The translations under genes were made by a program, and so were the position numbers. From Planctomycetota bacterium (lineage in GTDB: Bacteria > Planctomycetota > Planctomycetia > Pirellulales > Lacipirellulaceae), in contig JAJRWS010000183.1 in NCBI GenBank assembly GCA_024276705.1, positions 1 to 34,330 on the forward strand: a stretch of 34,330 bases of DNA. Direction: 5' to 3'. The notes under the pieces were generated by a model, which saw nothing but the letters and a program-made list of their open reading frames with translations, searched no databases and had not been told where the DNA came from. The number at the start of each line of letters is the position of its first letter. Positions within the stretch are counted from its first letter, which is position 1. Of the stretch, positions 27,190-30,948 are shown one piece after another.

Positions 27190-28579
27190 GGACCAGGGTT
27201 TGGCATTGTTATTCGCGGATGACGAACGCTCGCTGCAAGAGCTGATGAAGCTGGAATTGCCTCGGTTGGGACATCGGGCCACGATTTGCCCCGATGGGCT
27301 GACCGCGGTTGCCGCCCTGGAAAAAAATACGTACGACTGCATTATTGTCGATTTGGATATGCCGGGTCTGGATGGGATTGGAGTGATTGCCAAGGCCAAA
27401 GAGCTGTCTCCCGAGACGGAGGCGGTGGTGCTGACCGGCAAATCATCGATGGAAACCGCGGTCGCGGCTCTGCGTCACGGTGCATTCGACTATTTGACCA
27501 AGCCATGCAAGTTGATCGAAATTGAAGCGCTGCTGAAACGAGTTACCGAGAAACGGCAGTTGCAGCAAAAATTTCGCGCTTTGCAGCACCAGGTGCATCG
27601 GTTGCAAGGCTCGCCGCGGCTGATCGGCAGTTCGCTCGTCATGGAGAAAGTGCGAATGCTGATAAGCAGGGTAGCGCCGACTCAGTCCACGGTATTGATT
27701 CTTGGCGAAACGGGCACGGGCAAGGAATTGGTGGCCCGCTCGTTGCACGAACAAAGTACCCGGGCGGAAATGCCCTTCGTGGCGATCAACTGCGGCGCTT
27801 TGCCCGAGACATTGATCGAAAGTGAGCTGTTTGGCCATCGCAAAGGCGCATTTACAGGGGCCGACGACCATCGTGTTGGTTTGTTCGAGGTTGCCAGCGG
27901 CGGGACAATTTTTCTGGATGAAATTGGCGAGCTTCCCAAGGCGATGCAAGCCAAGTTATTGCGGGTATTGGAAAGTGGTGAAATCCGCCGGGTGGGTGAG
28001 AACAAATCGACCACGGTGGATGTCCGAGTGATCTGTGCGACCCATCGCGATTTGCCCGCCATGGTGGCCGCCGAGGAATTTCGCGAGGACTTGATGTACC
28101 GCATCAACACTTTCGAGATCTATTTGCCCGCCCTGCGCGAACGGATTGAAGATGTCCCCTGCCTGGCCCGGCACCTGCTGGCCCGGCACCCGCGCTTTAC
28201 TCGGAAACTGAACGGTTCGAGTGGGATGCGAGACCAGATTTCCGAGGATGCGATCGGTGCCTTGTGTGGACATGTCTGGCCGGGCAATGTACGCGAACTG
28301 GCCAATGTGATAGAGCATGCGACCATATTGTGCGATGAAGGCCCAATCCGCGGAGAGCATCTCCCGCAGCGCTTTAATGCGCGTCAGCTTGTCGGCGCAG
28401 CCCGCCGGAAACGGGGGCCGATGACGTTGCGCGAACTGGAGGCCGAGGCCATCCAGGAGGCGCTCGAGCGTTGCGACGGCAGCAAGCCCAAAGCGGCCGA
28501 ACAGTTGGGCGTGAGTCTCAAAACCCTCTACAATCGCCTCAATCAGGCTCAGGTAAGCAATCTGGAAAGGTCGGCGTGA
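27170..28579 (+). CDS. Sigma-54-dependent response regulator (NtrC family)
   Basis: A 469-residue regulator. The receiver domain starts with FADDERSLQELM (acidic pocket), the phospho-accepting Asp is in IIVDLDMPGLDGIG near residue 61, Thr/Lys in VVLTGKSS and LTKPCK. The AAA+ domain follows with Walker A GETGTGKE near residue 178, the sigma-54 contact loop GAFTGA near residue 226, and DEIGELPKAMQAKLLRVLE. The C-terminus has a Fis-type helix-turn-helix (EALERCDGSKPKAAEQLGVSLKTLYNRLNQ). It should activate sigma-54 promoters after phosphorylation by the kinase encoded just upstream. The C-terminus of the gene is followed by a 102-bp tandem repeat. Its targets are not identified here. Confidence 0.95.
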   Translation: MATKPPKDQGLALLFADDERSLQELMKLELPRLGHRATICPDGLTAVAALEKNTYDCIIVDLDMPGLDGIGVIAKAKELSPETEAVVLTGKSSMETAVAALRHGAFDYLTKPCKLIEIEALLKRVTEKRQLQQKFRALQHQVHRLQGSPRLIGSSLVMEKVRMLISRVAPTQSTVLILGETGTGKELVARSLHEQSTRAEMPFVAINCGALPETLIESELFGHRKGAFTGADDHRVGLFEVASGGTIFLDEIGELPKAMQAKLLRVLESGEIRRVGENKSTTVDVRVICATHRDLPAMVAAEEFREDLMYRINTFEIYLPALRERIEDVPCLARHLLARHPRFTRKLNGSSGMRDQISEDAIGALCGHVWPGNVRELANVIEHATILCDEGPIRGEHLPQRFNARQLVGAARRKRGPMTLRELEAEAIQEALERCDGSKPKAAEQLGVSLKTLYNRLNQAQVSNLERSA

Positions 28580-28598
28580 GACAGGCCGATAAGCCAGC

Positions 28599-28817
28599 GC
28601 GGCTTGGCCAGATCCCCCCACTTGCCAAACGCATCTTGGAGCATCGACGCGTAGCAGGCATTGCAACCTGTACGGCTCTAGTCGCGTCGATGGTCCCAGT
28701 GCGGCTTGGCCAGATCCCCCCACTTGCCAAACGCATCTTGGAGCATCGACGCGTAGCAGGCATTGCAACCTGTACGGCTCTAGTCGCGTCGATGGTCCCA
28801 GTGCGGCTTGGCCAGAT
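28599..28817. repeat. 102-bp tandem repeat, 2.15 copies, with an internal 10-bp inverted repeat
   Basis: Units at 28599-28700 and 28701-28802 are identical over their length in my reading; a third starts at 28803 (GCGGCTTGGCCAGAT) and ends at the lexA stop codon (28817). Each unit holds the inverted repeat CATCGACGCG ... CGCGTCGATG (28642-28651 with 28683-28692 and +102 in copy two), giving a stem-loop with a 31-base loop that has a smaller CAGG/CCTG stem. The repeat fills almost the entire space between the convergent regulator and lexA genes. It may act as a bidirectional transcription barrier, or be a selfish REP-like element. 102 is a multiple of three, which makes a false frame of 156 codons stay open across it. 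Confidence 0.93.
28642..28692. terminator. Possible stem-loop terminator-like element (copy 1 of the 102-bp repeat)
   Basis: The 10-bp arms CATCGACGCG and CGCGTCGATG pair perfectly. There is no T-run, so it could at best block transcription with Rho, or be an RNA-stability element. An identical copy lies at 28744-28794. Confidence 0.4.
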
Positions 28818-29416
28818 TAAAGCTTCCGGATCACGCCCGATACGATTCCCAGCACCCGTACGTTGCGGGCGTAGATCGGTTTCATCGAGGAATTCGCCGG
28901 CTGGAGCCGAATCCGATTGGCTTCGGGAAACCAGTACTTGAGTGTTGCTTCGCCATCCTCAGTCAGCGCGACCACAATATCGCCTCGGCTCGCGGTGCGA
29001 CCGCGACGGCAGATTACCAGATCGCCATCGGCAATTTGGGCTTCGATCATCGAGTCGCCCTTGACTTTCAAAACGAATTGCGATTTTCGAGGTGGGAACC
29101 AATCTTCGAATTCAAAGCGTTCGGCCTGTTCAATGGCTTCGGTTAGGTTCCCTGCCGCGATTTCTCCAACCATGGGAATGCCACGGTCGGCCATCGCCGC
29201 TTCGGTTAACTGGATGGCCCGAGACATGTTCGGTTCGCGAGTAATCAGCCCTTTTTTTTCGAGCGCTTTCAGGTGACACATGACGCCATTGGGGGAACGG
29301 ATCTTAAAATGCGCGCCAATTTCCCTCACGGTGGGGCCATAGCCGCGATTTTCGATTTTATTGCGAATCAGATCGAAGACTTCACGTTGCCGTTGTGTCA
29401 GTTGTTCAAAGGCCAT
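28817..29416 (-). CDS. lexA: LexA repressor
   Basis: A 199-residue SOS repressor. The N-terminal winged helix-turn-helix reads LTQRQREVFDLIRNKIENRGYGPTVREIG, with the recognition helix in RSPNGVMCHLKALEKKG. The autocleavage site is Ala88-Gly89 in EIAAGN. The catalytic Ser is Ser122 in KGDSMIEAQIADGD and the Lys is Lys160 in GEATLKYWF, so autocleavage should work. DNA damage with RecA* would trigger cleavage and derepression. A good ribosome site (AGGAG, 29421-29425) precedes the ATG by four bases. Upstream lie three 11-bp direct repeats, and beyond them a foldable element. The gene is divergent from proB and convergent with the response regulator. Confidence 0.96.
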   Translation of the reverse strand: MAFEQLTQRQREVFDLIRNKIENRGYGPTVREIGAHFKIRSPNGVMCHLKALEKKGLITREPNMSRAIQLTEAAMADRGIPMVGEIAAGNLTEAIEQAERFEFEDWFPPRKSQFVLKVKGDSMIEAQIADGDLVICRRGRTASRGDIVVALTEDGEATLKYWFPEANRIRLQPANSSMKPIYARNVRVLGIVSGVIRKL

Positions 29417-29436
29417 AATACTCCTGCTCCCCCCAA

Positions 29437-29469
29437 GTGTTAAAATCGTGTTAAAATCGTGTTAAAATC
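29437..29469. promoter_or_regulatory. Three 11-bp direct repeats upstream of lexA (GTGTTAAAATC)
   Basis: GTGTTAAAATC is repeated three times without mismatch at 29437, 29448 and 29459. On the lexA strand the unit is GATTTTAACAC. The period of 11 bp is close to one helical turn, and the repeats lie 21-53 bases before the lexA ATG, where an operator or promoter is expected. It does not match the E. coli (CTGT-N8-ACAG) or Gram-positive (GAAC-N4-GTTC) LexA boxes. Role as an operator is inference. Confidence 0.75.
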
Positions 29470-29496
29470 GCGGAATGAAAACGATATGCCCGTGTA

Positions 29497-29587
29497 AGGC
29501 GAGCGGCAAGTGAAAATTTACCTGCCGCGAGGCTGTCAAGCATTACCAGCCGTTAAAACCTGGTAAGTTCTCATCTGCCGCTCGCCT
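29497..29587. other. Foldable inverted-repeat element between lexA and proB
   Basis: A perfect 12-bp pair, AGGCGAGCGGCA (29497-29508) with TGCCGCTCGCCT (29576-29587), encloses 67 bases. Inside is a second perfect stem, TTACCAG (29543-29549) with CTGGTAA (29560-29566). The GCGGCA of the left arm can alternatively pair with TGCCGC at 29523-29528, so two folds exclude each other. It could be a small RNA, an attenuator for proB, or a MITE-like remnant with 12-bp terminal inverted repeats. Confidence 0.75.
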
Positions 29588-29694
29588 AAGACTAGTCAAC
29601 CGGTGTATTCTAATATACGTGCGTACATGGTCAATGGCAATTGTACAGGGTTTTATACTTGACCTGTCGCCTTGGACCCGTGACGATATTTCCC

Positions 29695-30948
29695 ATGGAC
29701 ATTGTGCGTCAGGAAATCATGACCGCGGCCGACCTGATTGTCGTGAAGGTTGGTACCCGTGTATTGACCAACGGGGACGGAGTGCTGGACCTGCATCGAG
29801 TGGAGAGTATCGCCGGCCAGTTGGCTGCGTTGTGGCAGGAGGGTCGCCATATGGTGTTGGTCAGCAGCGGTGCGGTCGGGGCCGGTTTGGGCCGATTGGG
29901 GACCCGGCAGCGGCCGCAGGATCTGGCCGATTTACAGGCAGCGGCGGCCATCGGCCAGACCTATCTGATCGAATCTTACAATCGGGCTCTGGAACCCTAC
30001 CGCCTGCATGCGGCCCAGGTGCTGCTCACGGCCGACGGACTGCAGGATCGGGCACGCTATCTGAACGTGCGCAATACCCTGTTCGCCCTGTTTCGCCAAC
30101 GGGCCGTGCCGATCATCAATGAAAACGACACGGTCAGTACCGAGGAATTGGAGCTGAGCTTTGGTGACAACGACCGCCTGGCAGCCTTGGTGACTAATCT
30201 GATTCGTGCGCCCTTGTTGATTTTACTTTCCGATGTCGATGGCCTCTACGATGGCGATCCGGCCGACCCGGCTTCCCGAGTGGTGTCGACGATCACCGAT
30301 TTGCCATCGGCTCAGGCCCAATGGGTTTATGACGAAGAGGAGACCGAGGGCAGACCAGGAGGGCAGGGCGTTGCAGCTCGGCAGACGAAGACGAAAACTG
30401 GCAAGTGTGGGGCGACCAGTAAAATGGAGGCTAGCCGTTCCCATACGGATGATCGCCGCATGCAATTGAGTCTCGGTGGCATGGCCAGCAAACTGCAGGC
30501 AGCCAATATTGCCACGGTTGCTGGCGAAAACGTGATCATCGCCAATGGTCTCCGCGACCATGTGTTGCAAGATATTGTTGCCGGCAAAGATATGGGGACT
30601 TTGATCCTGGCCAAGGGGCGGTCCATCGATTCGCGCAAGCGCTGGATTGGCTGGAGTGCCCAGCCTTGTGGGCAGCTCACACTCGATGCGGGAGCGCTCC
30701 GGGCGATTCTGGCGGATGGCAGCAGTCTGTTGGCTGTTGGCGTGACGGCCGTCGAAGGGAGTTTCTGCAAAGGAGATGTGGTGGGCTTGTGCGGCCCCGA
30801 TGGGGGCGAAATCGCTCGTGGCCTGATCAATTACACCGACCAGGAAACGCGCGCGATCGCTGGGCATTCCACTCGCCGCATCGCCGAATTGCTGGGGCAT
30901 TGCCCTTACGATGAAGTGATCCATCGGGACAACCTGGTGCTATTGTAG
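29695..30948 (+). CDS. proB: Glutamate 5-kinase
   Basis: About 417 residues. Catalyses the first step of proline synthesis, glutamate to gamma-glutamyl phosphate, in the cytoplasm. Motifs: LIVVKVGTRVLT at the start, SSGAVGAGLGRLG, PIINENDTVST, FGDNDRLAALVTNLI and LSDVDGLYDGDP; the C-terminal ~100 residues form a PUA domain (GQLTLDAGALRAILADGSSLLAVGVTAVEGSFCKGDVV). An unusual low-complexity insert of about 45 residues (near residues 213-258, with EEETEGRPGGQG) precedes the GGMASKLQAA motif. The ATG at 29695 is preferred; ATG 29719 has a better ribosome site (AGGA) but loses part of the N-terminal helix, and 29641 would add unlikely residues. The DUF456 gene follows ten bases after its stop. 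Confidence 0.94.
   Translation: MDIVRQEIMTAADLIVVKVGTRVLTNGDGVLDLHRVESIAGQLAALWQEGRHMVLVSSGAVGAGLGRLGTRQRPQDLADLQAAAAIGQTYLIESYNRALEPYRLHAAQVLLTADGLQDRARYLNVRNTLFALFRQRAVPIINENDTVSTEELELSFGDNDRLAALVTNLIRAPLLILLSDVDGLYDGDPADPASRVVSTITDLPSAQAQWVYDEEETEGRPGGQGVAARQTKTKTGKCGATSKMEASRSHTDDRRMQLSLGGMASKLQAANIATVAGENVIIANGLRDHVLQDIVAGKDMGTLILAKGRSIDSRKRWIGWSAQPCGQLTLDAGALRAILADGSSLLAVGVTAVEGSFCKGDVVGLCGPDGGEIARGLINYTDQETRAIAGHSTRRIAELLGHCPYDEVIHRDNLVLL

Follow-up and report, generated by a model that had tools for sequence, protein, structure and literature searches.

The window, i.e. the whole stretch of 34,330 nucleotides that was analysed, carries lexA on the minus strand (28817–29416; TIGR00498, 1.8e-59) and proB, encoding glutamate 5-kinase, on the plus strand (29695–30948; TIGR01027, 7.1e-112). 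The spacer between the two genes contains an 89-bp element (29498–29586), with which no open reading frame of at least 60 aa overlaps, as well as a predicted lexA promoter of the form TTGACC-N16-TAGAAT (29607–29634, minus strand) in a region that is conserved in relatives. A conserved motif preceding lexA, TGTACGCACGTATA (29614–29627, minus strand), lies inside the predicted promoter and is a candidate LexA operator. Two tandem repeats are also found around lexA: an 11-bp unit, GTGTTAAAATC, repeated perfectly 3.1 times just upstream of the lexA start (29437–29470), and a 102-bp unit (28594–28817; 2.2 copies, 99% matches) in the gap that separates the 3′ end of lexA from the end of an upstream regulator-like gene.

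Inverted repeats and predicted fold

A preliminary description of the locus had reported a perfect 12-bp outer stem and a perfect 7-bp inner stem. The outer stem is present as claimed, since AGGCGAGCGGCA (29497–29508) and TGCCGCTCGCCT (29576–29587) can be read in the sequence as a perfect 12-bp inverted repeat. One of its 12 pairs (A29497/T29587) is supplied by the flanks, as part of the two TAA copies of a target-site duplication identified by flank comparison (29495–29497 and 29587–29589), and the element proper consequently spans 29498–29586. The left terminal inverted repeat (TIR; 29498–29522, plus strand) comprises 11 perfect bp and continues imperfectly to about 25 bp, and its right counterpart lies at 29562–29586 (minus strand). 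The left arm GCGGCA has, as described earlier, a second possible partner in TGCCGC (29523–29528), with which it forms a subterminal palindrome, GCGGCA...TGCCGC (29503–29528, plus strand).

Folding of the 89-nt element as RNA gave −43.5 kcal/mol (z = −6.7) for the plus strand and −45 kcal/mol (z = −6.5) for the minus strand, which is the lexA-sense strand, and none of 200 shuffled sequences folded as well. In the minimum-energy fold the outer stem is extended and the inner stem is unused. Thus, the complementary sequences of the inner stem, TTACCAG (29543–29549) and CTGGTAA (29560–29566), do exist, but the stem itself is absent from the predicted structure.

Position relative to lexA and proB

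The lexA gene was found in 39 of 43 genomes of the family, and 30 lexA loci were compared. The sequence GTACNNNCGTATA occurs upstream of lexA without mismatch at 23 of these loci, including the window; among the other seven it carries one mismatch (n = 1), two (n = 2) or three (n = 3), or is absent (n = 1). In the window this motif precedes the lexA ATG by 210 bp, as compared to 66–112 bp in the five aligned relatives in which proB is found beside lexA; the value becomes 118 bp when 92 bp (insertion plus duplication) are subtracted. Over all loci the distance varies more widely, and at some distant loci it amounts to 200 bp or more. All seven relatives whose lexA locus includes a proB match lack the terminal 10-mer, and hence the element; two of the seven, with spacers of 731 and 1000 bp, were excluded from the alignment. 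Among the remaining 22 relatives, four loci have a single exact copy of the 10-mer GGCGAGCGGC, unpaired, within about 3.6 kb.

The element has the lexA promoter/operator (29607–29640, minus strand) on one side and the lexA start codon on the other, and is therefore most likely transcribed as part of the lexA leader, as judged from the sequence, and not specifically as a proB leader. The earlier view that it occupies the only leader region of proB does not hold, as the conserved lexA promoter separates the element from proB.

Copies within and outside the genome

The genome from which the window derives is an 85% complete draft that comprises 698 contigs (6.36 Mb). A BLAST search of this draft with positions 29480–29610 returned 27 matches. 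Besides the window, six copies are near-complete (89–90 bp, 93–98% identical; contigs C77, C196, C301, C554, C296 and C286), while the remaining matches comprise the ends only. Eleven cousins with the ends in common and different interiors could be distinguished, of 123 bp (C328, C85, C69, C18 and C545), 102–103 bp (C407, C403, C91 and C319), 89 bp (C276) and 232 bp (C615). No match to proB or lexA was observed at any of the 17 copy loci. When 59 genomes were searched, this one included, end-matches only were found in 3 of the 58 others, and the interior of the 89-bp subfamily is consequently, so far, private to its own genome. A search for the TIR pattern allowing up to three mismatches found it in 11 of 43 family genomes, whereas the backwards control gave 0 in all 43. 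MITE (miniature inverted-repeat transposable element) groups of 102–187 bp with the same ends are abundant in several planctomycete drafts (loci L099–L199, among the matches listed); two of the records, L126 and L146, are labelled Kuenenia and Verrucomicrobia and are perhaps mis-binned.

Target-site duplication

The window element is flanked by TAA on both sides, and identical 3-bp flanks were observed for 15 of 18 elements in its own genome (14 of the 17 others plus the window). Taking own-genome elements and other contigs together, 66 of 91 distinct TIR-bounded elements among the matches listed have identical 3-bp flanks, and TAA or TTA accounts for 57 of these 66. Many of the 91 come from a scan sample of at least 101 stretches, and they include mutual relatives, so that they do not represent independent families; the insertion sites do, however, differ. 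In the subset with 12-bp flanks the 3-bp flanks are identical in 62 of 87 elements (again among the matches listed, as are the following counts). Shifting the comparison outward by 1–8 bp reduced the matches to 0, 0, 3, 1, 0, 2, 3 and 3 of 87, respectively, and comparing duplications of 2 or 4 bp instead gave 4/87 and 3/87. The 25 of 87 elements whose 3-bp flanks are not identical count against a MITE. The family displays a clear 3-bp TAA/TTA target preference.

Full-length relatives and the transposase family

A 1391-bp element with perfect 27-bp TIRs was located on contig JAGQQQ010000593.1 of Planctomycetaceae bacterium HKST-UBA70 (locus L121). Two of its open reading frames match PF07592 (DDE_Tnp_ISAZ013; 2.9e-32 and 4.3e-21), and the same two match the NCBIfam model transpos_ISAzo13 (4.6e-26 and 4.9e-23), with neither half reaching the 200-bit cut-off set for the whole protein. 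The L121 transposase is split between two frames, and the flanks of the element are unequal (TAA/TTG). A second such element (L051; 1342 bp), at a contig end in a relative, shares the outer ends and likewise encodes a transposase matching PF07592. At its left end the window element is identical to L121 at 30 of 32 positions (93.75% over 32 bp); for the right end the identity is 89% (28 bp). Likewise, the GCGGCA...TGCCGC palindrome is present in the left ends of both L121 and L051. The central ~26 bp of the MITE gave only short chance matches to L121 or L051. The transposase genes of L051 and L121 are 74% identical over 823 bp, and both change frame near a G run followed by A (L051, 1865–2010; L121, about 2404–2492), possibly by programmed frameshifting.

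Several other candidate parents were set aside. An IS630 parent was considered on account of a TIR in L031, ~120 bp before what by eye resembles the start of an IS630-like element; the contig ends there. PF13358 matches came from 7 of 10 genomes, and of the 14 loci examined for ends a convincing pair was found only in L051, for which PF07592 fits better; L045 ranked next, with a single match at 17 of 25. A 2591-bp end pair in L163 resolved into two separate 145-bp elements, one on each side of another gene. Of the loci with ISAzo13-type matches (n = 16), only those that include the L051 element reached a TIR match of at least 17 over 25 bp. Among the relatives of the L051 transposase, those at L073, L092 and L096 have diverged ends nearby, e.g. 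GGCGATCGGCAGGCTGAAG or GGCGAGCGGCGGCCTGAAA, and no such ends were found within the fetched stretch of a fourth (L072).

When the own draft genome was searched at 1e-10 for close relatives of the L051 transposase, none of 8 candidates gave a match, and its ISAzo13 gene on contig C451 lacks a matching TIR and contains a stop. An active parent can therefore only be inferred: no transposase bearing these ends was found in the own draft, and L121 has unequal flanks and a frame break. Judged by these sequence relationships, ISAzo13 is the likely family of the transposase that mobilises this planctomycete MITE family.

Nature of the element

In combination, the matched ends, the dispersed copies, the 3-bp duplications, the full-length relative with an ISAzo13 transposase and the absence of the element from the spacer of relatives leave little doubt that the element is an 89-bp non-autonomous MITE, which has kept only the two ends of an ISAzo13-family insertion sequence (IS) and was inserted at TAA with a 3-bp duplication. 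It represents one new MITE family of an already known kind, an ordinary though nicely traceable mobile element. A short mobile element with TIRs had been named in the preliminary description as the alternative to an RNA, and is borne out by the dispersed copies, unrelated to proB, and by their target duplications. To move the element, an ISAzo13-type transposase would have bound its ends in trans. In its present state the element would be a passive insertion, transcribed as a hairpin that starts roughly 14 nt downstream of the predicted start site of lexA.

The terminal repeats are held in common with ISAzo13 insertion sequences (PF07592, NF033519) via L121 and L051. Unlike these, the MITE has no coding sequence and retains only ~32 bp on the left side and 28 bp on the right. 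The bacterial MITEs Nezha, RUP and NEMIS, named in the available text of PMC3733652, probably differ from the 89-bp element in their termini. Bacterial MITEs in general are non-coding, multicopy sequences of 70–300 bp with TIRs, like the element reported here. Duplications of 3 bp, as observed for the MITE, are given for the ISAzo13 family and its eukaryotic kin Zator in the available text of PMC10045372. A description of ISAzo13 MITEs was not found in the literature searched, as far as its available text extends. Linking a MITE family to ISAzo13 and to a target preference is of help in annotating repeat-rich planctomycete drafts.

The MITE might in addition have been put to use, such that its leader hairpin alters lexA mRNA stability or translation and hence the SOS set-point. 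This is improbable. The location downstream of the conserved lexA promoter and ahead of the start of lexA, and the folding of the lexA-sense strand, far better than that of shuffles, are in line with such a role, but the terminal repeats alone account for the strong folding, and other copies have the same pairing at loci that match neither proB nor lexA. A wider model, in which ISAzo13-dependent MITEs were amplified within a single cluster of planctomycete genera and, in this genome, the lexA-leader copy re-tunes the SOS response via its transcribed hairpin, is similarly hard to credit. If true, it would link mobile-element load to DNA-damage control, and should lexA expression be affected by the insertion, the locus would allow MITEs to be tested as leader elements in a natural setting.

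The RNA reading proposed previously, in which two exclusive stems make up a proB attenuator or riboswitch-like RNA, is very unlikely. A plus-strand promoter-like site upstream (29440–29468, 9 of 12) would place the element inside a proB transcript, and GCGGCA indeed has two possible partners; the second of these, however, belongs to the IS left end. The copies lie elsewhere than near proB, and all seven relatives with proB beside lexA are devoid of the element. A search of positions 28500–30500 against Rfam gave a sole match, outside the element, of 17.7 bits compared to a gathering score of 112. In an alignment of seven copies 98.5% of cells pair and 0 of 28 pairs are changed on both sides, a result that weighs little either way as the copies are too similar. 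A false riboswitch candidate is thereby removed.

REPINs depend on a Y1 transposase and are not known to make a target duplication, in contrast to the 3-bp duplications and the DDE relative found here. Movement of a REP/REPIN-type palindrome by a RAYT (Y1) transposase is exceedingly improbable, despite the likeness of the element to these short extragenic palindromes in many copies and the occurrence of REPs in planctomycetes reported in the available text of PMC3733652, as 62 of the 87 elements among the matches listed carry the 3-bp duplication and the ends are those of a DDE element.

Candidate LexA operator

The conserved lexA promoter region (29607–29640, minus strand), compared across loci L200–L229, contains a palindrome-like sequence, TGTACGNNCGTATA, often with CTGTACA upstream. 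It is a candidate for the LexA operator of this planctomycete family. The E. coli LexA motif is not recognised by the LexA of Planctomycetes, according to the available text of PMC3108266. In the three genomes searched, the exact lexA motif occurs four times, and three of these occurrences are located before lexA.
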